Assembly (NCBI GenBank): GCA_021234155.1
Contig: JAJEKV010000111.1
Coordinates: 2,612,968 to 2,676,967, forward strand
DNA: 64,000 bases
Origin: Isoetes taiwanensis
Taxonomy: Eukaryota > Streptophyta > Lycopodiopsida > Isoetales > Isoetaceae
Direction of reading: 5' to 3'
The stretch's first letter is position 1; every line of letters starts with the position of its first letter. The position numbers were made by a program, and so were the translations under genes. Under the pieces are notes generated by a model. The model was given only the letters and a program-made list of their open reading frames with translations, made no database searches and was not told where the DNA came from. Positions 27,606 to 43,831 of the stretch are shown here, one piece after another.

Positions 27606-28418
27606 CTACACAAGGCAATCTCTTGATACTATCAATTGGAGTAATATAGAGTGGAAGCCCTTCCTGTTGTAATACTCTTGTGCAGATTCATGAAAATCAA
27701 TGATTGGAATATGGCTTCCATCAATTGCTCCAATAATGTACGAAATACCATGAATAGCTTCAAAAGAGGTTGCCAGACTTCGCATCCTATTTGATGATGG
27801 CCATTTAATATATAATTCCTTGAGTTTATAATTGACACAAGCAACAAATTCAAGAACAGCTTGTTGTGCACTGGCGAATCCAACTCGATAGGAGTCTGCA
27901 ATGCCTGTCAATGTGTCACATGTAGCTAGCCTAGACAAACCCATCATAATTTTTGTTTCAATTGGTATAGCAGCTCGAAACTTTGTATCTTGCCTTATCA
28001 TCAATGGTCCCAGCTCATTGCACAAATATTGAAAGGTAGCTTTGGAGATGCGCAACCTTCTTTTAAAATATGTGTCAATATAAGTATGCAACAGCAATGC
28101 ATCCAACCCGGAGCCTTTCTGGTACATCCAAAAACGTGTTCGAGTGTTTTATCTTGCCAAAGAAGAACCAAATTCTGCAAATAGAGCCATTGCTGCTCTG
28201 AACCAAGCTAGACCTCGCATATAGAGTGCATAAGAGTCATCGTCATATGAAATATCATTGGCAACAAGACGTGTGAACTGAAGCATAAAAAAGAAAAACC
28301 TTCCTGCCATCATTACTAATTCTGTCCTATCATGCCTATCAGTTTGTTCTGTTACTTCAGAGACTTGCTGCAACTCATCCTCAAAGCCGCTAATATCTCT
28401 TGAGAGGTTTTCTTCCTC
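27606..28418 (-). pseudogene. PIF/Harbinger (HARBI1-like) DDE transposase, split and truncated
   Basis: Minus-strand reading gives ENLSRDISGFEDELQQ, a polar N-terminus, one in-frame TAA at 28151-28149, and then the family segments FKRRLRISKATFQYL, IETKIMMGLSRLAT, and the first catalytic Asp in YIIGAIDGSHIPI followed by YYNRKGFHSI. The second Asp and the Glu of the DDE triad are absent: the frame ends shortly after at LIVSRDCLV, so the C-terminal half is lost. The initiating ATG lies 15.4 kb away at 43834-43832. The MULE inserted after codon 4, and its target duplication GAGGAAGAA (minus sense) is present on both sides. It could alternatively descend from a domesticated HARBI1-like host gene. 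Confidence 0.88.
28410..28418. repeat. Left 9-bp target-site duplication of the MULE (TTCTTCCTC)
   Basis: Identical to 43823-43831. On the minus strand it encodes Glu-Glu-Glu at codons 2-4 of the Harbinger transposase. Confidence 0.85.
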
Positions 28419-28556
28419 GGGGATTTTTTTTTTTTTAGGTTTTTTTGAAACATGTTTTTTGAGCTTTTATGGAATATTCATAATATTCCATGAATCGATA
28501 GGATACAATGCTTGCCTCCAAAAGGGACAGCACCTTGCACAGAAGACTTAAACAAC

Positions 28557-28749
28557 CCAATCATAGAACAATGTTGGTATCTAGATAATAACATCTTGAA
28601 ATAATATAACAAAGAAGAATTGGAGAATTATACTTAGAAAGTAGACAGATCGATTACAGTATTAGAAAATCCGAATAGCATAGTAATTTATGTCACTGCA
28701 ATAATTGCAGAGACTATATCAATGTATAAACGACAGATGTATTTTATAT
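28557..28749. repeat. 193-bp direct repeat, left copy, flanking the LTR element
   Basis: Runs from CCAATCATAG to TATTTTATAT and matches 33838-34030 with one visible difference (GAAATAATA/GAAAAAATA). It is MULE sequence between the left terminus and the 3' end of the methyltransferase-like gene. Confidence 0.95.
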
Positions 28750-28750
28750 A

Positions 28751-30702
28751 TGTCGTCTGCCAAATCGAGGCAAAAATCTGCAAAAAGCAGATTAATAAGA
28801 ATATAGCTCGGGGAATCATGCTAGCTTAGCGAAGAAAGCTAAGCAAATATGGAAAGGGGAAGCAAGTACCGAGAGATGTGCTACGAGAAGAATTACCATG
28901 AGAAAGACATGGGAAGGAATGATATGGCAACAGGGTTGCCGTGAGAAGAGCCCCATAGAAGAAAAATACCTATGGTGGTAAAATGGAGATAACGTGGCAA
29001 AATAAAGGCCTCGAATAATGGAGAGGTCAAGTCACGAGATTGGAAGAAGAAAAGATGTCGGGAATTAAAGGGAGAAAAACCTTTGGGAAGAACCATGGAA
29101 GTGGAAATACCCATGGAAGAAAAGAGAAGATGGCCGTAGCCTTACGGGCGAAGCCAGAAAAGAAATATCAATGGTGACAAGGAATGGGCTACAACAGTGA
29201 AGGTTGAAGAAGAAACTTTAAGGAATACATACAGGTGCAAGCCGAGTTGGGGAATAAAACCCATTGAAGAATAAAAAAGGAACTAAAGGGGAAAGATGTG
29301 TTAACAAATGTTAACAAAGGGCAAGTTATAACAGAACAGTGCAATGGACGGTCGCGACCAAAAGAGCGACTCAGGAAAGGGATTTCCAGGAAAAAGATCT
29401 GGAGCAAATCGAGTAGGAGGCCTCGGCATCAGAAAAAACTCCAGAAGAAGAAGCCAGATTCATCTTGAATCGACTCGGCCAAGGCAGAATTTATCAGAGA
29501 AGTACAGAGGTCGAATTAGAGAAATAATGAAGAAGGAACTTGGGCATCAACGAAATCATGGATGAGCGGTTGCTGAAAGTGCCGGATTTGACAAAACGAT
29601 GAAGGATACTGGAAGAAAACCCAATTGTGATTAAGGTCTGCCCGGGCCCGGTTCTGGAAAAAGCGTGCATGGATCAGGCCGGATTTGACCAACATCAGGC
29701 CATGACCATGCAAAAAATTATGTCAGAAAGCCATCAGGGTTTGATGGAGAAGAAACCACAGCCATCTGTGTAGAAGTAGCATTATGAAAGTAGGTCATAC
29801 TGAAGTGAAGATCTAGGAGGCATTTGGATCGGGAGGACCAGATGCACTTAAAACTGCTTATCAGGTTTGCTGGTAGGTTGAGTAAAATGATGGTGATGCC
29901 CAAGCAGGTGATCAAAAGTAGAGGTAGAAGTAGTCGACCACCCTTTGGGGAGGCCTCCAGAAGGCATTTGCATCCTGGAGAAGATGGTGAGGCAAAGTAT
30001 CTCTTAGTACAATTGGAAAAGAGTAAGTTGTCTCCTAGTAGTACCCCTTTGCACATGTGCAGCTTGAGGCCAAGTTAACGCGCAGAAAATTGCTTCTTCA
30101 CCTCTACTGTGGTCTATCTGTATTCTCGGGTGGTGTTTCAGGTGGCATCGTCTTCATGTGTTATGGGATATTTTCTTTGGATGATCCTCTAGAATGGTGT
30201 TGTTTACTACCTCCAGACCTGGGTTTTATGAGCATGTGTTCTGACAAGGTTAGGTATCTGGCTGGAGCCTTAAATAAATGTATTTATTTACATACTATTA
30301 ATAAAAATAAAAATATTGTGCCTTCAAAAAAAAAAAAAACGATTTCAAAGACAGAGGGCCGATCTTCTGCTACAGAACGCAAAATGGAGAAGGAGAGAGA
30401 ACAAAATTAAGGAAAAAAGAAAGCTCGTAAAGAAAGCAAAATTAAGGAAAAAAGAAAGTTTAATACTTCAAAAGCCAAAGGATTGAAGAACCACAAAATC
30501 GCATCTTTTATGCGTGATGATGTGGCAATGAGGTGGCGATGATATGGCAGGGGGCTATAAATATGTAACCACAGTTGGGGTTTTTCCAACCATAACCAGA
30601 ACTATCAATATGCAATAAAGTTTGATCCTTCGTTCTCGTTTTCCTTGAGTGTTCTCTTTCACAGCGCTACACTTCTCTCGGGTCGCGAGCTAGGGCTCGA
30701 CA
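28751..30702 (+). repeat. 5' LTR, enlarged by a 564-bp poly-A insertion
   Basis: Colinear with the 3' LTR except for an insertion at 29776-30339 and the lack of the tRNA-like unit seen in the 3' LTR. GGGGGCTATAAATATG at about 30550 is a good TATA-box candidate, and AATAAAG at 30614 a candidate poly-A signal. Confidence 0.9.
29776..30339 (+). mobile_element. Poly-A-tailed retroposon inside the 5' LTR
   Basis: Absent from the sister LTR, where GTGTAGAATTCGATTTC is continuous. It ends with ATAAAAATATTGTGCCTTC and an A14 run, with AATAAA words upstream, as expected for a reverse-transcribed mRNA or LINE/SINE tail. No clear target duplication; two bases (TT) appear lost. A plus frame at about 29824-30078 has no recognisable domain. 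Confidence 0.75.
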
Positions 30703-30997
30703 TATTTGTGGTGCACTGGCCGGGAAATCAATCGTGGTGCTCGTGAAAGGAGATTTGTCCAAGAAAGCCGGCAACATTAGATAGAGAAGAGGAGCCAAGC
30801 CACGGTTAGAGAGAAAGCCGGGCCAACTCCCTCCATCGATGTATGTACGTGCAAGGAACAGAATCCAAGGAAGAGCACGAAAGAATTGTTATCAAGAAGC
30901 GCTGACAAGGCAAGAGAATAAATTAAATTAAATTGCACCATGAATAAAGTGCAAAAGAGAGATTAGAGCCATTGACAAGTTTCGAGAGAAGGGAATT

Positions 30998-32329
30998 ATG
31001 AGTGGACAAATTGATTACTTTGCTCTTATGCAAAGAGGCTTGATTGTGGATCAAGTCCATCTTCATCAAGTCGCAGCAGCAGTAGCAACCCATGGAACTA
31101 CAGCACTAGTGCATTGTTCTCAGAGATCGACAATATCCATGGAAGTTCCAACACCAGAAGTGGTCATAAAAAAGTTCAAAGATGACATACTTAGATAGTT
31201 GTCTGGGAAAGTGCTCGAGATGCAACAAACGATGTCCATCATGCAGCAAAGAAATTTTGTACATTGTTGGAGATGTTATCAGTACGGCCATATTGCAAAA
31301 TATTGTCCAATAGAGTCTGTGTACCAATCACATTGTGGGACCTGCAATACCCAAGAAGACGAGATGATTCAAAAGGAGATATTCACAAATGAGGACAATG
31401 AGGGGACAATACGATTTTGCGTGGAGTGTCAGCAACTTATTTTTCTTACAAGGCAAGAAGTAGAAGTATTGGATGAAGAGGATGACTTATTGACTTGTCG
31501 TTACCATAAAGCTACATATGCATCCTCAGAACTGCTTGAGGAAAGTTCTATTGGAGACTTGGGGCCTGAGGTGGTCGAAGAAGAAAAGACAACAGACTTT
31601 CAACACTTGGCGCCCATTCAACATGTGCTTGATCCAGCATTAATGGAGAACCAACCAATTGACCAGAAGTTAGTTGAAAAGCCACATCAAGCTAACGTTA
31701 GCAACAAGGTTGATTGCCAAGGAGAGGAGCACATATGCGAAATGGATGTGATTGAAAAAGAGAACAAATCAATACGCCTACATGAACAGATTAAGAAGGA
31801 AATAGAGGATGACGAGAAACGCGATCAAGATGCTACTCAAAAGCTAATCAAGTCGGGAGTTATGGTGGAGTTATCTCTTGAACTGGAAGCTACAAGAGAG
31901 GAGTTGCAAGGAACGGACGAAAAGGCTGTCGATTCCCAATATTTGGATATATTCAAGGAGTGGCTATGGGAATTTAAATTTAATTCCAATACGGAGAGGA
32001 AGTTATGTAAGGATGAGGTTGTTATGATGGCGCCGGAGCTGGAGGGGACATCAACAAGTCTGGACAAGGAAGTCAAGGAGAAGATGCCCCAGATTCAAAA
32101 AGTGGAATGTGAGCCAATGATGCTAATATTATTGGGAGCCAAGTTTAAAGGTTACATGGAATTGCATCAAAAGAACTTAAATTGGTTGGATAAGGAGTTG
32201 GAATGGATGGAGCGTAAGGATCTACAAGCCAAGGTGCACTTGAACGACAAGGACAAGCATGAGGCTCATGGAGGAATGATGATTTCTACATGGCCAAGAG
32301 TGGGCTGGAAGATATGGGATCCAGGGTAA
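30998..32329 (+). CDS. Gag-like zinc-knuckle protein with one in-frame TAG
   Basis: One frame runs from ATG 30998 to the stop at about 32329, interrupted by a single TAG at 31196-31198 (after 66 codons). Downstream of it lies CWRCYQYGHIAKYC, a perfect CX2CX4HX4C zinc knuckle of the kind retroelement Gag proteins use to bind RNA. Two more Cys pairs (HCGTCNT and FCVECQQ) follow, then a long acidic, coiled-coil-like region rich in Glu, Lys and Leu. No protease, RT, RNase H or integrase motif is present. The stop may be a lesion or a suppressible amber codon. Without it the product would be about 443 residues. It probably packages the element's RNA with help from a relative's Pol. Confidence 0.7.
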
Positions 32330-32381
32330 GTTTCAAAAACCTTGAGTTCCTCGGGACGAGGAACATTTTCCTCCCCAATAA

Positions 32382-33836
32382 TGTCGTCTGCCAAATCGAG
32401 GCAAAAATCTGCAAAAAGCAGAATAATAAGAATATAGCTCGGGGAATCATGCTAGCTTAGCGAAGAAAGCTAAGCAAATATGGAAAGGGGAAGCAAGTAG
32501 CCGAGAGATGTGCTACGAGAAGAATTACCCATGAGAAAGACATGGGAAGGAATGATATGGCAACAGGGTTGCCGTGAGAAGAGCCCCATAGAAGAAAAAT
32601 ACCTATGGTGGTAAAATGGAGATAACGTGGCAAAATAAAGGCCTCGAATAATGGAGAGGTCAAGTCACGAGATTGGAAGAAGAAAAGATGTCGGGAATTA
32701 AAGGGAGAAAAACCTTTGGGAAGAACCATGGAAGTGGAAATACCCATAGAAGAAAAGAGAAGATGGCCGTAGCCTTACGGGCGAAGCCAGAAAAGAAATA
32801 TCAATGGTGACAAGGAATGGGCTACAGCAATGAAGGTTGAAGAAGAAACTTTAAGAAATACATACAGGTGCAAGCCGAGTTGGGGAATAAAATCCATTGA
32901 AGAATAAAAAAGGAACTAAAGGGGAAAGATGTGTTAACAAATGTTAACAAAGGGCAAGTTATAACAGAACAGTGCAATGGACGGTCGGACCAAAAGGGTG
33001 ACTCAGGAAAGGGATTTCTTGGAAAAAGATCTGGAGCAAATCGAGTAGGAGACCTTGGCATCAGAAAAGACTCCAGAAGAAGAAGCGGGATTCATCTTGA
33101 ATCGACTCGGCTAAGGCAGAATTTATCAGAGAAGTACAGAGGTCGAATTAGAGAAATAATGAAGAAGGAACTTGGGCATCAACGGAATCATGGATGAGCG
33201 GTTGCTGAAGGTGCCGGATTTGACAAAACGATGAAGGATACTGGAAGAAAATCCAATTGTGATTAAGGTCTGCCAGGGCCCGGTTCTGGAAAAAGCATGC
33301 ATGGATCAGGCCGGATTTGACCAACATCAGGCCATGACCATGCAAGAAATTATGTCAGAAAGCCGTCAGGGTTTGATGGAGAAGAAACCACAGCCATCTG
33401 TGTAGAATTCGATTTCAAAGACAGAGGGCCGATCTTCTGCTACAGAACGCAAAACAGAGAAGGAGAGAGAACAAAATTAAGGCAAAAAGAAAGCTCGTAA
33501 AGAATAAGGAAAGTTTAATTACTTCAAAACGTGATGGTAGTAGACTTGGCAAGACCTCTGCCTTCTAATGGATAGGTGCATGATTCAATTCCATTGCAAG
33601 ACTTTTTGCCAAAGGATTGAGGAACCACAAAATTGCATCTTTTATGCGTGATGATGTGGCAGTGAGGTGGCGATGACGTGGCAGGGGGCTATAAATATGT
33701 AACCACGATTGGGGTTTTTCCAACCATAACCAGAACTATCAATATGCAATAAAGTTTGATCCTTCGTTCTCGTTTTCCTTGGGTGTTCTCTTTCACAGTG
33801 CTACACTTCTCTCGGGTCGCGAGCTAGGGCTCGACA
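32382..33836 (+). repeat. 3' LTR carrying a tRNA-like insertion
   Basis: Matches the 5' LTR with scattered substitutions and lacks the poly-A retroposon. It contains an extra unit of about 78 bp at 33530-33607. Confidence 0.9.
33530..33607 (+). other. tRNA-like unit with box B and T5 terminator, in the 3' LTR
   Basis: The sister LTR reads CTTCAAAAGCCAAAGG across this point, so the unit is an insertion here (or a deletion there). It has tRNA length, an A-box-like TGGTAGTAGACTTGG, a CTTCTAAT segment recalling the tRNA-Arg(TCT) anticodon loop, GATTCAATTCC (box B with two changes) and a terminal TTTTT. Stems pair poorly, so it is a relic. Confidence 0.5.
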
Positions 33837-33837
33837 T

Positions 33838-34030
33838 CCAATCATAGAACAATGTTGGTATCTAGATAATAACATCTTGAAAAAATATAACAAAGAAGAA
33901 TTGGAGAATTATACTTAGAAAGTAGACAGATCGATTACAGTATTAGAAAATCCGAATAGCATAGTAATTTATGTCACTGCAATAATTGCAGAGACTATAT
34001 CAATGTATAAACGACAGATGTATTTTATAT
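33838..34030. repeat. 193-bp direct repeat, right copy, flanking the LTR element
   Basis: Begins one base after the 3' LTR and ends 8 bp before the stop codon position of the minus-strand methyltransferase-like gene. Confidence 0.95.
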
Positions 34031-35012
34031 GTTCAGATCATGTATCTTCTTGTGCCTCGTCATCAATGTAAAGACATCGTTTGCGTTTCTTTACTTTTTG
34101 CTCAATACTTGACATTAAGGACAATGCTGTGGCATGTTGCTCGGCATAGACGGGCAAGAAACTGCAATATAAGACAAACACATAGTTAGTTTTTAGTATG
34201 GATAGTTAATGTAAGCAAACAATAGAAATTTTAGCTCACTAACTAATCAACCGGTTCTTCAATCACGTCTATGATTATCTCATCCTCTTCCTCCAAATCC
34301 AGCTGCATAGAAGGCGCCCCTTCTGCTAATGGTTTTTTGAATGTAGACATTCGAAGTATTCTGACCACATCACAAATATCAACATCAAAATCCATTGCAT
34401 AGCAATGCAAATCTCGGAGTGTGCAGGCCTCAACCATAGACCCTGTACCTGTCAATAAATCCACGATATAATCACCAGAATCACATAGCAGTTGGAGTAA
34501 GAACTCGTTAAAGCGGGTGCTCTTCTCTAAATTATGCCGCAGTGAATGATGTTTTGCTGATCTCATTCTGTCACCCGGCCCTAAGTAATGCCTCAAAAGT
34601 TCACTGCTATAGTCCAACTCATGTTGACTAAATACCTCCTTGGATTTAAATGTCGGATTTGTGCCAGCTCTTTTGTAGAGAGATACTCTCAGCACATTTC
34701 TTGATAGAGTACCGTATTTATCTTTATGAAAACTGAATGGTCTGTCCCCTACTAATTTGTATGATCTTCATAGTTCAAGGTTCTTTTTTCTGGCTGCCAT
34801 GTCTATCATCTTTTGAAACTCAAAACTGCTAATACACACTAACCATCCACTGTCATTCAAACAGAGTTCACCCAAACTAAAACATCCATCTACTAGTGTG
34901 TCAAGTTTGTTCCAGTATGGTGTTTCGTTTGAGTCACTTCTTGTCGGCTCATTTGTTGGCAGATCAACAAGAACCAAGTTAGCACCCCAATCTCTGACTT
35001 TTCCATTCCTGT

Positions 35013-35020
35013 AGTACATG
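35013..35020. repeat. 8-bp target duplication AGTACATG, left
   Basis: Matches 38647-38654 exactly, directly outside the transposon's inverted ends. Confidence 0.9.
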
Positions 35021-35759
35021 CCCGGGGGCTTCACCCCTTTATATAGAGCATATGGCATGTGCGTGCAAGGGGTCGACTGAAACCCCCCTGTATACGACTT
35101 TTTGCAGGCGAAACCCCCCAACCATACGTACATATGAATTTTAATTTTTGGCCCCTTATTCGTACATGTACTCCAGTCCCAACTAGCAATCCATATACCC
35201 TTTCCCATACATATACTGGACACCATAAGAAAAGTCCTAGCCCTTGTAGCACATATGGTAAGACATCATTTATGGAATATTTTTTTAGTCATTACAAGAG
35301 CTAGCTAAGCTAGTTTGTTGTATGGGTTTGGAGTTTGATTATTCAAATACAAGCCCATATTAAATGCAAGGTTAAAAGGGGGATTAACATCATAACCTAT
35401 GGCAAATAAAGACTATACAAAGTGTGTCAATCCCGGTGTCAACGCAATGTCCATTGAATGATTGATCTAAGTTGATTAGGGAGTTGAATTATCAATTGCC
35501 CTACAAAGTTTATAAGGCAAGATCAACAAGATCAAATAGCTTCACAATTCTTAGCCAATGTTGGCCAATGGTTTATAATGTTGAAATGTTGAAATGGTTC
35601 ATGATTGCATGGCTCCTAGACTTCCTAAGGTCATTATTATAGCTTCCTATGGTTCATTATTATAAGGTAGGCATCATTGCATGGTTCATATGATTACTAA
35701 ATTACATGATTGCATGGCCAGAAATTGCATAATAGCAACTTATAACTTTATTATAAGTT

Positions 35760-36212
35760 CTTATAACATCATCAGTTGAATTGATATGCACAGAAGTGAG
35801 GCTTTCAAAATTCTCATATGTGTATATTGTGGGACTACGACTTGTATGTAGTAGGCTGCTTGCCTCTGCAGTTTTACTTGCCAAAACCATCCTAGTCCGC
35901 ATAAGATTAATGTCATAAAACTGTAAAGACCCATCCTCAGATCCGGAAATGAGCTGTAAAAATATTGATTCAATCAGCAATGGCAAGAAATTAAAACACA
36001 GGAAGAGGACAAATATAGCACCATACCTTATCTGGAGCTTTGTTCAGCCAACATAGCCCAAGTACACTCTGTGGAGTGCCACGCACATAGCCTACTATCT
36101 TCTCATCTTCATGGTTAACCACAACCACCTCTCCTTGAAGTGTCCCAAAGACCATGAGACTATCATCCTTTGGGATGGTAAACCAAGAACCTTCTAAGTA
36201 AATATAGACCAC
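35760..36212 (-). pseudogene. Captured WD40-repeat gene fragment (two exons)
   Basis: Exon one ends at 36027 (GATAAG/GTATGG) and reads PKDDSLMVFGTLQGEVVVVNH, then YVRGTPQSVLGLCWLNKAPDK. Exon two starts at 35953 after TTTTACAG and reads LISGSEDGSLQFYDINLMR, then LTSVHINSTDD. The pattern (..VLGLCWL.., GS.DGSL..YDI.., LTSVH.NSTD) is that of a plant WD40-repeat protein. Only about two blades are present, with no start codon or C-terminus. A frame at 36379-36194 may be a further upstream piece. Confidence 0.65.
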
Positions 36213-37261
36213 CGGTTTTGATGATCCTTTTTTGCCGCGAAGACCGCTCTCTGGCGATATTTACGTAAGTGCCTTAATAGCATCCCCGTGGTCGCCGCAA
36301 TAGCATCAACAATAGATATCCTTGGTAGCTTGTCTTTACTAGGTTCTCGTGAAGATAGATTATGAAGATCAGCCGGCATTGGCGGTTAGCAAAGACTCGT
36401 GCCAACTATAGCCTTGGCACTATTATCTTCATCTCGAATGCCGCTTCTCGAGACAATCTCGGCCAAGTGAGTGGCTGCTTGAGTCGCAGTTGTTGGTTGC
36501 TGATTACGCATCAACATAGAACTCCTTTTAATGCTGAAGTACATAATGGTGTTCGAAAAAAGCATTGGATAATTATGAGATGTTCAGTTTAATGGTAGAA
36601 ACACAACAAACTAGACATCTCTTTCAACACGAATAAGGTTTTCAAAATGTAAGTTAACTTATGTAAAAGCTCAATATGACATGCAGAGTGTCCTTCAATT
36701 TAGTGTAGGCAAACTTGTTTGGAAGATAGAAGACAACACGTAAATAATTTTTAGACCAAGTAAACTGCAAGTTGCTCTTGGAATAGCAAAGCACTTATCT
36801 CTCCCTGGCGGAAAGACGCACCCGAGTAGGCAAAGGCCATCGTCAATCTTTGAAAATTTGTGATTGGAGATAAAATCAATGCTATCATCAATTCAAGGGA
36901 GTTCTGAAAGGCAAACAACCAAACATTTGGACAAGAAAAAGGTAAAGTTCAGAAGAAAAGCAACAATATGCCAGAGCACCTTCAAAGATTTGCAACATTT
37001 GACTGTTCTACCACTATCAAGCCACTACATTATCTAGAAGTGCATGGATACTCAAACTCCAACTTTTTCCTTTATCTCAAGATGAAAAAACAATTGTGCC
37101 AAGCAGAGTAAGGAGACTAGATGTTTCTTTTGGATAAGAGAACAAAGCAATTCTTTACTGTAAAGGAGATATTTACGCAAATTACATAAAAAAATTGGCG
37201 CATGTCCATGTACTGCTAAAACATCATTTTCCCATTCATGAAAAATCAGATAGAAGACTAC

Positions 37262-37870
37262 CTTCAGAAGGTCCCTTGTCTTAGCTTCCTTACTCATGCT
37301 AGCAACCGGTTCTACAGCTGCTGATTCTCCTGTTTTCACAATGTTCATACTAAAAAACATAAAGGCAATATCAAGTACCGTGTTGTGTCAGACATATTTT
37401 GGTGAAGAATGGTTAGTCAAGTCTCCTCCAAATGTCTAATTCTTGTGACACCTTCATCCTTGCCAAATAATCCTTCAACTTCTCAATACTCTGATGCAAC
37501 AACGCAGAACTCCAACAATCAGTTATTTGCAGATTTTTGCCTTATAAACCATTTATGATTTCCTTACCTTCATTTTTCCATTTTTATCAGGTGTAGCTGG
37601 CTCCCCATGGCCCTCAAGTTCAGCTTCACGTTGCTCTGTTGCGTAAATGCTCTGCATAAACAGTATTTAGCCAGCACAATATTAACTGCCTCAACTTGGC
37701 TAAGATCTGGATTGGTCTAGCATCCAGGTCTGGCATCCAGAAACTACTTTAAGAAAAAGGGGACCTGACTAAATACTACGATATTAAGACTTACTTTCTC
37801 TTCTTCCTCCATGATTTCTTCTTTCCACCTGTTGCGCACCTTTTATGGGTTGAATCTCGTGAAATACCTG
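37262..37870 (-). pseudogene. Captured exons of an unidentified gene
   Basis: Two minus-strand exons have clean GT-AG borders: 37651-37568 (SIYATEQREAELEGHGEPAT..) and 37349-37262 (MNIVKTGESAAVEP..KEAKTRDLLK). A Glu-rich piece with [11 protein letters not shown] lies at about 37840-37795, ending at a likely donor. Charged, low-hydrophobic sequence; family not recognised. Confidence 0.45.
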
Positions 37871-38646
37871 TTAGAAAGATGCAAAATAAACGCTTTTATG
37901 AGATTAGAATCAAAGGGACACAATGCATAGCTAATTGAGAGACTACTGATAAAAACGGGAGATGAAGGAAATACCTTTCTGAAGCAAGCAACTCTAGATA
38001 TTTTAGGGTATATCTAAGAAGAGTAATGACAAAGAAATGCAAGATCAAGCCAAGAAACAACAATGTAGGCAAAAATATGCACCAAAGCAAAAATGCAAAA
38101 AATTAATTAGAACTAAAAGCGAATCGGTTCATAAAATAAAGACCTGCCAGATCTTTGCTTCAGGCCTCAAGATCTTTAACCTGCATAACAGAACACAAAG
38201 ATAAGGTAAGATTCTGCAACAAAAGACAATCTAAAAGCCCTAGAACCAAACTTTCATTTCAAAAGATCCTTCTCCAAGCACCTCCCAAGACTCGACAAAC
38301 AGCTCCAAGATTCCAGAATTGGACCTTCTGCCTTTCTTCAAGAGCTCTTCCATAAATGAAAAGATTTGATGTGGCCGCTAACTTCATTCTTGAATCTGAA
38401 ATGTAGCTGCAACCGACAAAGATGCAAGCGCAGTAGCAGATCAAATGGCACATAAAAAAACACACCCCTACAAGGATCCATGCGGGAGCGCCATTTCCCG
38501 CCCATCACCCCTACCGTTTTGAGTACTGCTAGAACTTGGTTTTCCGTACAACCAACCCATACGTCTACGGACCCCTTGCCAATTAAAAAACCCCCTACCA
38601 GTCACGATGTTGGTCTATACGGGTTCTTAATGGTGAAGTCCCCGGG

Positions 38647-38654
38647 AGTACATG
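38647..38654. repeat. 8-bp target duplication AGTACATG, right
   Basis: Second copy. On the minus strand, the methyltransferase reading frame runs into CATGTACT at this copy and resumes in the same phase after the copy at 35013-35020. Confidence 0.9.
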
Positions 38655-40259
38655 GATGATTTCCTTACTTCATTTCCTAAATTTCTCAATGATGTGAACA
38701 CTTCATGGCCGCCTAATATTACAGCCATGGAGACCACACATATATCTGCTTGGACAACTCGAAATTCAGTATGGCATTCTTTTTGAAGTTGTACAACATC
38801 AAGCATATGCTTTCGTGGAGGTGTTTGATAATCGACAATATTGTCCTCTTTCTCATTTTCCTCATTAGTTGCATCAGATAATTTTGTCTTGTCTCTCCTG
38901 CTTCTGTTTCTTTTGTCAACATCCACTTTTTCCTCATTTGGATCCACCTTAATTTTCTGCCCTCCCCGAATCCGGTTGTAATCCGACTCTTCTTCTTGAT
39001 AAGATCCTAAAGGAAAATCAATCCACCAGGGACAATTTTCTCTTTCCCATTTATGCATTCCACCTCCCCTGTCTAGATTACTTTTTGGACTATACAGTCA
39101 GCACCTATTTGAGACACCCATATTTGTATCTGTGGATGCATTGATTCCATGCACTTAATATGAACCAAATATTTGAAATATCTGTATGCAACTCGCATGG
39201 CTGTCCTTTGCACTTCAAAAGCTTCAGAAACATTGACTGTAGATTGCATATGTCTCTCCCAATGCTTAAACATTTCAACTCGATTTCTAGCTTTAAATGT
39301 TCTGTACCAAGTCTCCACATCACAGTCCCGAGGTATTAACAACTGCAAATTATGTTGTTCAATTGCTCCCTTCATCAAGTCACATGATCTGGTCAGTAAA
39401 TGCTCTAGCCATGTTTCTTTCTTTACCCAAGAATTGAAGCTCTTGTCATTAGTTGGTATCTTCTGATAATTACCAAAACTGAGATGTGCTAGTCATTGTC
39501 TTAATCCAATTATCTCTCACACTGTTCTGCACCTTTGATTTGACCATAAACAAAAGCTTTTCCATTGTCATATTAACTCCTTTAGATTCTAAATCCTTGG
39601 TTGCGACATGGCGTAACCAAACATTCCCAAGACTAGGATTCATAATGGCTAGATATTTTTGCATTTTAGTTGTCCACTTTCGTCTCACTTCCCTTTCAGC
39701 ATTTGCCTTCAAGACATCAAATTCTGAAATGTTTTCATGATTTGATTTTATGTAATCCTCAATGTCCTTAACCATTGATGCCTGCATCAATGGATTCTTA
39801 GTAATTAATTGAATCTTAAACAGCAAGAGAAATATAACAGCAGAAACAACACTAAACTTACGTTATATAATATCTTTGCATAGGCCAATCTTGTGAGAGG
39901 ATACCAAGGCTCGTTTGACCCAATCATTTCCCTTGTCCTCTATGCTTTTAACTCACTGGGAGATAATTCCTTTATATACTTATCTAGTTTGGCAGTAGCA
40001 ACTCTATGCACAATCATTAGTGTATCTTGTAGACTTGTACGAACGACATAGCAATACTTCCTGCCACTTTGTCTATGTCAACAATCGTATCTGCAAGCCC
40101 TTCTATTGTCTCTAGTGGACCTGCACTAGATTCAAACAACATTGCCAAACTTCGATGTGTCTGACAACCTCTTGGCTTTCTTTTAGGAGTGACGAGTCTA
40201 GTAGGCTGCAAATCTGGTTGACTGTTTCTTGTTTCTACCATAACAGAGGCCACACTGCA

Positions 40260-40820
40260 AGAAATACAACATAAGATAAGAAAACACCATTCATTTGATT
40301 AGTGACAAGGGACTAACATCAATTGTCTGTGTTCTAGAATAGGACAAAATTTAAGCAACGGTGCCATCCCCTTGCAACGTTTAACATTTCAGCGATTTAA
40401 AATGTTATGAAATCTATGGCAAGGGTGCCGTCCCCTTGGAATGAAGCACATATCAGATCTTCCACTGAGACCAAAACTAAGGCAACGGTGCCATCCCCTA
40501 TTAATGTCAGCTTATTTGAACAGTATTTGAACAGTCGATGACCAATGCCAGAAGCTCCATGACCAATGTTAGAAGCTCCATGACCAATGTCAGAAGCTCC
40601 GAAAATGAACATTCAATGTGTACTGGGAGCTCCGAAAATGAACATTCAACATGTTCTACAATCAGTCAAATGTTAAGCAACGGTGTCGTCCCCTTGCATT
40701 GGCTGGCATTTCAGTGATTTGAAATGTGATAATCTAGAATCAAATGTGCTAGAATAAGACAATATATTCTAGAAGAAGATATATACGAGCTCCCAAGTGA
40801 AAAAAAATGTTCGAAGCCCA
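40260..40820. promoter_or_regulatory. Central divergent spacer of the MULE with tandem repeats
   Basis: The spacer lies between the outward-reading methyltransferase-like and transposase genes, so it should hold both promoters. A unit with CAACGGTGCCATCCCCTTG occurs in four versions (about 40357, 40422, 40482, 40678). GAAGCTCCATGACCAATG-like units repeat three times at 40553-40601, and AGCTCCGAAAATGAACATTCAA twice at 40604-40650. These could be binding sites for element-encoded or host proteins. Confidence 0.5.
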
Positions 40821-43601
40821 TGTCAGGAATGGAACAGAACATGGATCCTCATGTTTGGTCAGACCCTTCTCATAGAGTTGTTCCAAGTTTTCCAGGCTGT
40901 GTGAAATTGGCCCATTGTTGTGGCCACTTACAATGCAAGAATATGATTTGTGAATGTTTATTGGGAACAGGGAAACCAAATGAGGTGCAATGGAGAGGAA
41001 CCTTAAGGAATACACTATTTATAGGAGAACTATCTATGATCAATGGTTCACTTAATTGTATATTTTGTATTGTAAGGAAAAACCAGAATGCATAAGCCAG
41101 TGCACATGCAAAATATATTACTGCTTTCCAGATAATACATGTTTTACGAGGTTGGCCTTTCACATCGGAAGTCATGATCATCCTATCAGAGTTGCAGAGT
41201 CAAGAGAAGGTATGTATATGGCCAAGGCACTTTTGAACACTAGAGGTGCAAATACACCATCAACTATGAAAGGAGCCCAAGGAATACAACACGATCTTGC
41301 AATGGATTTTGTGAATGGTAATATAATTTCTGAAGAGGAAATCTCGGCTTTTCAAACAATGGATTCTCCGGGTGTGGATAAATTTCTTCAAAAACTAGAA
41401 CCATTGAATAATCAACGAAGGTATTGTATTAACTTTCACGATTTATATCCAATGTCTTTAACTGGCATTTATTATTAATTTTGGAATTTCAGATTGCGAA
41501 GGTGAATTCATAAAGCTAAGGCTCAGAACAAGAAAGGAGGGGATGAGTTCTCTTAAATTTTATATTTGAAACAACATAGCAGATACCAGTACTTCCATGG
41601 TTCAGTATTTCCTTACTAATTACATGATGACGAGAATGAAAGATGTTATATCTTCAAGACGTCCACCATCGGGCCTGGCTCAGGAGTGGATTTAGTAAAT
41701 AGAATGTGTCCGGGTGGGGATTTGGAACATAGTTGGGTTCATTTTGATCATGTGAAACGTATTCCCACTTGAACAACGTCGGGGAGTCATGTTTATGATC
41801 TAAAGTAAGTTGTTTCTTTTTTATTTTGATCCAAAGTAAGTTCTTTATTTTATTTTTGTAATTCCTTTTTTGTAGGATAAGGTCTCTACAAACTATTGCC
41901 TTGTGTGACATGAAAACTGAAGATTACATTGCACAAAGACTGTTTTGGGAAAAACTAAATAAGGTGATGGAGGGCAAAGGTTTTCTAACAGCTGAATTTA
42001 GGAAATTCATGGCCGATGAAGCACAGGCTAACTGGACAGTAGTACGAGATGTGTTCAATAACAGGAAATTTTAGGTGGAGAATGCTCATGTCAATTTCAT
42101 TTTGAGCAGTGCTTGCAACGTCACACAAATAAATACATTTATGAGGCCTACCGTATCCAGCATCTGGATTTATGTAGGAAATGGAGGAATGCAGAAACTA
42201 TTGAAATTGCGGAAGATATTTATCATGAAATGATTGATTAGTGGCCTGGAAAAGCCGACGAGGTGGACATAAAGTCGTTAGATTCGTGGTTGTCTTAGTG
42301 GCATTAGAGGGTAAGCAGATGGGGAAATTATATGCTTACAGGAATGGATATAGCCAGTGCCATACATGTCCCTCACACTAACATGTCTGAATCCAAGCAC
42401 GGAAGCTGGCTAGCAGCTAGGGGATACAGAAAGACTATGAATTTAAATGATGCATGCGTATTTGATATGACAGAAGCACTCTTGCAAAGCTCCAAATATG
42501 AAGCATGGTTGGAGGGTAGACACTTGGGAACAGGGCCTACTGTTTCGAATCTGTTGGGAAGATTAGAAAGAAGTATTCGCTCTGGAATAAGCCCTATGCA
42601 GGGAGTGAATATAATTAATGAACAAGCGTCCAGGAGTGGAATGCCAGAACATAATCCTGGATCCGGTGGTAATAACTGAACCATCTTGAGAAAGACATCC
42701 ACAATTACTAATTCTGAAGCAGGAAGTCACCGTCCAGATAAGGTGACCCACACTATGTCACTTTCAAGAATTGATGACTCAGCAAGAAGGACAATAAATT
42801 TTGGCAGTCCACAAATTAGAGTCATAGAAGTAGATATCCATCAGGCTAGTTGGGCCTTGAGGAGGACACTTGCTGGAAGTGAAGTGAAATGTATGGATCG
42901 TGTTTCAAAAACTGGTCGTAAATGCCAAAAACGTATTAACAAGGGGAACAAATCCACTGTTGCCCCTCCTTTTTATGAGATCAGAAGACATCGAAATGGA
43001 GAGCAGGAACAAATGATGTGGTTTTGTTCAACCAATGTGCAACATACATGGTATCCGGGTTACAGTATTGTCAGTGCTCCTAGCAGACCTGGTAGTTGGA
43101 CAGTGGCTACAGGAGTCAACGTAAAGGAAGAAGAAAGTGTTGATGAGTAGCAGATTCGAGCTGAGAGGGCTATCATCCACATCTAATCAGTATTCCACTG
43201 ACATTTCTTCTGATGCACCTTCTCCGAGTAGCTTCGTCAGAATTAGAAATGGAAGGCATGCCAATAAAAGAGCCAGATTGAGTAACGATGAAGATCTGAA
43301 TCTAGAGCGAAGTTATGACATGGAAGCAGAAGTGGTTGGAAAACAGATTATCACACGCGGAAAGCATGTAATTTTTGAGCTTAAAAGAGATACCAACATT
43401 TACAAGTTTGAGATTAGTGCAAACCCTAAATGTAGTTGTCCAGAATTCATGAAACATGATTGCAAGGGTAGATTTCTCCTCTGCAAACACATGTGTTATG
43501 TCTTCAATAGGGTGTTGGGACATAATCCAAAAGAGAACAAGGAGGTGATTCAAGCAGTATTGACGGATGCTACACTGGCAATGCTTTTAGGTGTCAATTA
43601 A
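40820..43601 (+). pseudogene. Mutator-like (MULE) transposase with C-terminal SWIM-type zinc finger, frameshifted
   Basis: Fragments appear in MULE order across several frames. HIGSHDHPIRVAESREG at about 41160-41215 matches the H.G.H.HP segment before the catalytic core. FMADEAQANWTVVRDVF at about 41997 matches the second catalytic Asp region (here Asp-Glu-Ala), followed by CSCQFHFEQCLQRH, the MULE C..H motif. NMSESKHGSW at about 42380 is the catalytic Glu region. MNLNDACVFDMTEALLQ follows. The last frame (43137-43601) has CSCPEFMKHDC then CKHMCYVFNRVLG, a SWIM-type zinc ligand set common at the C-terminus of MULE transposases. The first catalytic Asp could not be placed. Multiple frame changes and stops (41478, 42060, 42240-42310) make it non-functional. 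Confidence 0.8.
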
Positions 43602-43822
43602 ATTCTTCAAAAGTAATTGTTATTGTATATCTAGAAACGTAGCAGGCAACATCAGATTTTTGTGTAAAGTGTTCAAGATATTATATAAAAATTAAGATTC
43701 CTGTCAATTTTATTTCCTCAGTTTTCTCCATATTAGAGTAATGGATTAAGAGGAATACACGAATATTCCTTACAAAAAAACACGAAAATGTAGTTCGAAA
43801 AAACTTAAAAAAAGTCGCACTC

Positions 43823-43831
43823 TTCTTCCTC
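43823..43831. repeat. Right 9-bp target-site duplication of the MULE (TTCTTCCTC)
   Basis: Followed at 43832-43834 by CAT, the minus-strand ATG of the interrupted Harbinger transposase. Confidence 0.85.

Follow-up and report, generated by a model that had tools for sequence, protein, structure and literature searches.

A family of Mutator-like transposons in Isoetes taiwanensis with a methyltransferase-like accessory gene

The element and its two genes

We analyzed a 64,000-nt stretch of the Isoetes taiwanensis genome (GCA_021234155.1, contig JAJEKV010000111.1, positions 2,612,968-2,676,967 of the forward strand), referred to here as the window. The interval 28419-43822 appears to be a defunct Mutator-like DNA transposon with two genes, a SWIM-finger transposase and, head to head with it, an accessory gene encoding a methyltransferase-like domain. 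In several divergent lineages of related elements from the same genome, the accessory gene lies inside the element ends, has diverged together with the transposase and shows low ratios of nonsynonymous to synonymous substitution (dN/dS); its product has the motif order of the beta-class amino-methyltransferases and a compatible fold.

The element is exactly bracketed by a 9-bp target-site duplication (TSD), TTCTTCCTC, at 28410-28418 and 43823-43831, and the inner 100 bp of its two ends form imperfect inverted repeats with a local score of 30. Repeated 9-mers spaced 2-20 kb apart were paired across the whole window and the ends scored as inverted repeats; among 9,474 such pairs this one ranked highest, the runner-up scoring 19 against 30. 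The boundaries proposed in an earlier reading of this DNA without database searches (the sequence-only reading) are thus exact. The terminus at the methyltransferase end (28419-28500) begins with GGGGATTTTTTTTTTTTTAGG and is of an end type common to 11 other copies. That at the transposase end (43740-43822) begins with GAGTGCGACTTTTTTTAAG when read inward.

On the plus strand, a transposase pseudogene (40733-43601) carries a C-terminal SWIM-type CxC..CxH motif, recognized by eye in the window and by Pfam in a relative, L043 (related copies are designated here by L numbers). On the minus strand, the methyltransferase domain (34243-35020) has VDLPTN in the slot of motif IV, followed by the helix HNLEKSTRFNEFLL and by motif I, VDLLTGTGS; its frame of about 780 bases is broken by one in-frame TGA at 34768-34770. 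The divergent arrangement of the two genes is as the sequence-only reading described it, but the accessory gene is longer than was claimed. Its 5' exons (38647-40298, minus strand), homologous to the N-terminal part of longer copies, are present as pieces at 40298-40017, 39862-39470, 39492-39073 and 39097-38647. Between the divergent genes lies an intergenic region (40299-40732), characterized by repeat comparison and by blastn with L029, which contains short direct repeats. Those at 40330-40730 (e.g. GCAACGGTGCCATCCCCT) are candidate binding sites.

Related copies in the genome

When the second half of the domain was used to search the 1.66-Gb assembly, 150 matches were scored of 773 candidates, ranging from about 90% to about 26% identity, and many of these relatives lie in long open frames. 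Twenty copies were fetched with 10 kb around each; the choice favored open frames and a range of identities, so these are not a random sample. A transposase, matched by pieces of the window transposase, lies upstream on the opposite strand in 15 of the 20, and a single pair of TSDs and terminal inverted repeats (TIRs) encloses both genes in 11 (nine exact TSDs and two with one mismatch; end scores 24-32). The window element and these 11 copies share their two types of end, GAGTGYRA... on the transposase side and a T-rich GGGRAA... on the methyltransferase side. TSDs and TIRs were inspected in 14 of the copies first, when L035, L042 and L043 failed (best scores 8-17), and in the remaining six separately. 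The pair was not convincing in L030, L033, L034, L035, L037, L042, L043, L046 and L047 (best 10-15). Single family ends are visible in L034, L035 and L043, and in some copies the far end may lie beyond the fetched stretch.

The pairing of the two genes is a property of the family, since it is present in groups about 92%, 70%, 34% and 28% identical to the window half-domain. That the methyltransferase-like gene belongs to the transposon, as had been suggested from the window alone, is therefore borne out by relatives with both genes in one TSD/TIR pair. Copies of the gene lying outside TIRs, or independent of this transposase, were also looked for and are not the rule, the five fetched copies without a matching transposase being considered below.

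Pairwise identities of the transposase and of the methyltransferase domain are correlated (r 0.92; Mantel test, 0 of 2000 permutations) across 12 of the 15 elements, the others having too little shared transposase. We calculated dN/dS by the method of Nei and Gojobori over the last 320 codons. Values were 0.10-0.39 for L029 against L030-L037, 0.14-0.25 for L029 against L038-L041, 0.13-0.15 for L042 against L043-L045, and 0.22 for L046/L047. In L030 and L033 the initial part of this stretch is read as out of frame, so that their dN may be inflated. These values suggest purifying selection on the methyltransferase domain; even with the bias toward open frames, such dN/dS across clades is not what one would expect of a free passenger.

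Assignment of the transposase

The sequence-only reading had called the plus-strand gene a Mutator-like element (MULE) transposase with a SWIM finger. The finger is supported by Pfam PF04434 in L043 (19.7 bits against a cut-off of 19.6), with L044 falling below the cut-off at 16.1; PF04434 was not listed for the open reading frames (ORFs) of L029 and L048, nor for the last piece of the window transposase. The MULE domain, PF10551, was not listed for five pieces of the window transposase or for six ORFs of four relatives, a scan that did not take in the HFDHVKR exon; with that exon included, hhalign against eight PF10551 loci of the genome gave Prob 0.1 with shallow profiles. The motifs HFDHVKR, MADEAQANW, CxxHFEQ and CxCPEF are kept in most copies that have the corresponding stretch, and a layout of DDE plus C2H can be read by eye. 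The element is thus Mutator-like by its ends, its duplication and its finger, and not by a transposase profile; the label is given because of the TSD of about 9 bp, the TIRs and the SWIM finger.

The methyltransferase-like domain

The second half of the window domain resembles Pfam PF01555 (N6_N4_Mtase) with an E value of 0.0035, short of the cut-off, which is passed by five of nine family proteins. The window domain also matched PHROG 3008, a DNA methyltransferase (E 9.4e-5), and phage DNA methylases were matched by tblastn, the best at 2e-4 among 20 listed of 229 records; taken by itself, the window copy has weak though consistent support from sequence. The first half, which holds motif IV, had no match in Pfam or NCBIfam, and its best E value in PHROGs was 0.24; NCBIfam gave nothing useful for the element. 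In a large protein collection, neither the window domain (356 candidates, no match at E 10) nor an 11-row alignment of the family (6,758 candidates, no match at E 0.1) found a relative. Sequence searches of the PDB gave chance-level matches with the window half-domain, and 8urk/9c3u at 1.7e-4 with the family profile.

The predicted structure of the window domain matches M.MboIIA, CcrM and a bdelloid enzyme that makes N4-methylcytosine (4mC). Motifs occur in the beta-class order IV - X - I, with a compatible methyltransferase fold, the alignment rows of the predicted model being viral beta-class enzymes. Of 80 proteins in the viral set, 46 were kept after redundancy and length filters, and 25 of 40 references were used in one comparison behind the motif order and fold. 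The beta-class order noted earlier and the structural comparison then proposed thus agree on a compatible fold, which is to be read with the viral rows and the unrecognized first half in mind.

The catalytic motif was compared in 30 distinct copies, L010-L015, L017, L020, L021, L024 and L027 coinciding with fetched 10-kb loci and being counted once; L019 gave no match and its site was not readable. All 29 readable copies have [DE][LF]PTN, following RDWG or RNWG, instead of the catalytic DPP[YFW], and the first residue is D in 28 of them and E in one (L035). Seven representatives, from clades 31-41% identical to one another, all keep the D, P, T and N, together with the preceding RxG..R.WG and the following P.WN; in total, 49 of 320 columns do not vary among them. 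This distribution rules out decay of the window copy as the cause of its DLPT. Judged from the sequences, the catalytic slot was altered long ago and the alteration has become fixed. Because [DNS]PP[YFW] was not found, we do not file the family among the catalytic members of the beta class. The beta-class motif I (DxFxGxG[TS]), which binds the methyl donor S-adenosylmethionine (AdoMet), was found in L042-L045, as DLFAGTGS, and in most of the window clade, as DLLTGTGS.

Decay of the window copy

The sequence-only reading considered this copy dead, and the damage is extensive: in addition to the internal TGA, the transposase is degraded, some sequence is missing, and the accessory gene and its flank have been interrupted. 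By blastn, L029 and the window are colinear at 43823-40784, about 40524-40049, 40048-38647, 35020-33840 and 28716-28429; the window lacks about 756 bp of L029 at 40048|40049. The same comparison delimits an extra segment of 3.6 kb (35021-38646) that splits the accessory gene. Within it is part of a gene with weak resemblance to WD40 (best Pfam E 0.003, short of the cut-off), which seems by eye to keep an intron; the segment had no blastn match at 1e-5 among the 20 fetched stretches. A nested long terminal repeat (LTR) retrotransposon at about 28750-33837, with LTRs at about 28750-30703 and about 32381-33837, is a later insertion. It is flanked by a 193-bp direct duplication (28557-28749 and 33838-34030) instead of a short TSD. 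Near the left end of the transposon, the minus strand of 27606-28148 bears a weak resemblance to DDE_Tnp_4 (Harbinger-type; E 0.063, below the cut-off).

Possible function of the accessory protein

We propose an amino-methyltransferase of the beta class, of a type found in bacteria or phages, as the ancestor of the accessory protein's C-terminal domain. Its AdoMet pocket has probably been kept in most lineages, to judge from the DLFAGTGS of L042-L045 and the DLLTGTGS of the window clade, and its acceptor site would have been remodelled in all of them, with DxPTN for DPP[YFW]. The target of the protein would be nucleic acid, probably the ends of the element itself or its intergenic region, and the protein would help transposition or escape from silencing, much as the mudrB and VANC genes do in other Mutator-type elements. 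Taken together, a beta-class origin with a remodelled acceptor site, action on nucleic acid and a part in transposition or anti-silencing seem to us a little better than an even bet. Because the acceptor site is so strictly conserved, methyl transfer with altered chemistry is slightly favored over binding alone. Whether a whole lineage of cut-and-paste transposons carries its own DxPTN AdoMet enzyme, one that would modify element DNA or RNA in an undescribed way and so control transposition or silencing, is a tentative extension that we consider doubtful.

Several observations weigh against this proposal. The first half of the domain was not recognized on its own (hhalign Prob 0.05); as high a local score arose in 7 of 100 column permutations and 35 of 47 shifted controls, and as high a global score in 51 of 100 permutations and 32 of 47 controls. 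The structural model was built with viral beta-class rows, which lend their fold, and the loop after DLPTN is predicted at a local confidence (pLDDT) of only about 56; a single-sequence AlphaFold model was uninformative (pLDDT 36.7) and was discarded. No copy among the 29 readable ones has DPP[YFW]. Motif I is more variable than the DxPTN slot, reading DLLTGTWS in L018 and L021/L037, DLLMCMWS in L040, ELFAGMGS in L046/L047 and DLFAGSAP in L048/L051; because of this variation the AdoMet pocket may have been lost in some lineages, and AdoMet binding throughout the family is less sure than the fixed change at the catalytic slot. For five of the 20 fetched copies (L030, L034, L037, L046 and L047) no matching transposase was found over the roughly 8 kb upstream of the domain. 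Two of these, L046/L047, form a clade of their own, about 30% identical to the window half-domain, and show no termini of the family type. Co-divergence does not hold for L036, which is 0.69 identical to L029 in the transposase and 0.90 in the methyltransferase. Some dN/dS values are higher (0.42 for L044/L045; 0.67 for L039/L041, at a dS of 0.03), those between clades are 0.24-0.51 at dS 1.6-3.0 or not computable, and low values are favored throughout because the copies were picked for open frames.

The clade of L046/L047 may have another transposon partner, or its gene may have been freed.

Other explanations differ in what they make of the altered acceptor site. METTL14 and MTA9 are catalytically dead pseudo-methyltransferases, and the accessory protein might likewise be a scaffold that binds element DNA, RNA or transposase and transfers no methyl group. 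We think this unlikely, though worth serious attention: the acceptor loop does not vary freely, D.PTN, P.WN and R.WG belonging to the best-conserved stretches of the protein, and L042-L045 keep a canonical motif I, DLFAGTGS. At the other extreme, an active N6-adenine or N4-cytosine DNA methyltransferase might label the element to guide its transposase or to block silencing, as the sequence-only reading suggested. However, the flipped base is held by the aromatic residue of DPP[YFW] and by its first proline, and both are absent from every one of the 29 readable copies. Self-marking of this classic kind therefore appears improbable, even though the predicted fold and nearest structures are those of DNA amino-methyltransferases, the bdelloid 4mC enzyme included, and eukaryotes are described as having acquired such enzymes before, in Adineta and Marchantia (PMC8885841, PMC12344493, PMC8566409).

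The gene might instead be a captured passenger, a piece of host gene taken up in the manner of a Pack-MULE and without function in the element. The WD40-like piece in the extra segment of the window copy (35021-38646) shows that capture or insertion does happen here. Yet the position and orientation of the accessory gene do not change even in elements as little as 28-35% identical; its frames are conserved, its dN/dS is low and it co-diverges with the transposase. On these grounds we reject the passenger explanation, leaving it only the slightest probability.

Comparison with known elements and enzymes

Like elements of the MuDR and VANDAL type, the window family has a 9-bp TSD, TIRs, a SWIM-finger transposase and a second element-borne gene. 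It differs in that the second gene encodes a protein of predicted beta-class methyltransferase fold, whereas the accessory genes of Mutator-type elements are mudrB, VANB, VANC or ULP1-like, and in that PF10551 was not found in the scanned transposase pieces. Its genes are also head to head, unlike those of MuDR, which are convergent. A parallel in the broad sense of a transposon-borne methyltransferase is in oomycetes. SET domains are usually protein lysine methyltransferases, which act on proteins and have an unrelated fold, in contrast to the DNA amino-methyltransferase fold predicted here. Such a domain is described in 14 members of the MULE-Phytophthora_1 group (PMC6446971). The accessory domains tabulated in that paper include no N6_N4-type methyltransferase, and 'methyl' occurs 0 times in its main text. 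An anti-silencing role is described for VANC (PMC10398659). Our limited literature search found no report of a Mutator-like element paired with a beta-class methyltransferase gene.

Among enzymes, M.MboIIA, CcrM, M1.HpyAVI, M.BceJIV and M.RsrI have the IV-I order and fold in common with the window domain, which is set apart by an identity of about 9-15% in structure alignments, by DxPTN for DPP[YFW] and by a long N-terminal extension. The METTL3/METTL14 and MTA1/MTA9 pairs (MT-A70) have a related, permuted fold, and some of the partners are catalytically dead. Bdelloid N4CMT (PDB 8s9m/8s9n/8s9o) is described as belonging to the host, where it is present in Adineta vaga as two alleles and encodes a protein that has a chromodomain and makes 4mC, and was stated in 2022 to have no eukaryotic homologs (PMC8885841); the gene studied here belongs instead to a transposon, and its DPP[YFW] has been replaced. 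MpDN4MT1a/b of Marchantia are eukaryotic makers of 4mC, said to have been acquired from bacteria and to be sperm-specific (PMC12344493, PMC8566409). As those sources describe them they are host enzymes with no reported link to transposons, and it is by description, not by sequence, that we set them apart from the window family.

Second genes are a known feature of Mutator-type transposons, and some of them counteract silencing by the host. Few beta-class amino-methyltransferases are otherwise found in eukaryotes. A second gene with a DNA amino-methyltransferase fold, kept across domains that are 31-41% identical, would be a new class of Mutator accessory factor. Copies with long open frames are present in the genome, so that whether the element writes its own epigenetic mark is directly testable. 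If our proposal is true, the family may represent a novel means by which a transposon influences its own DNA or the silencing imposed by its host.

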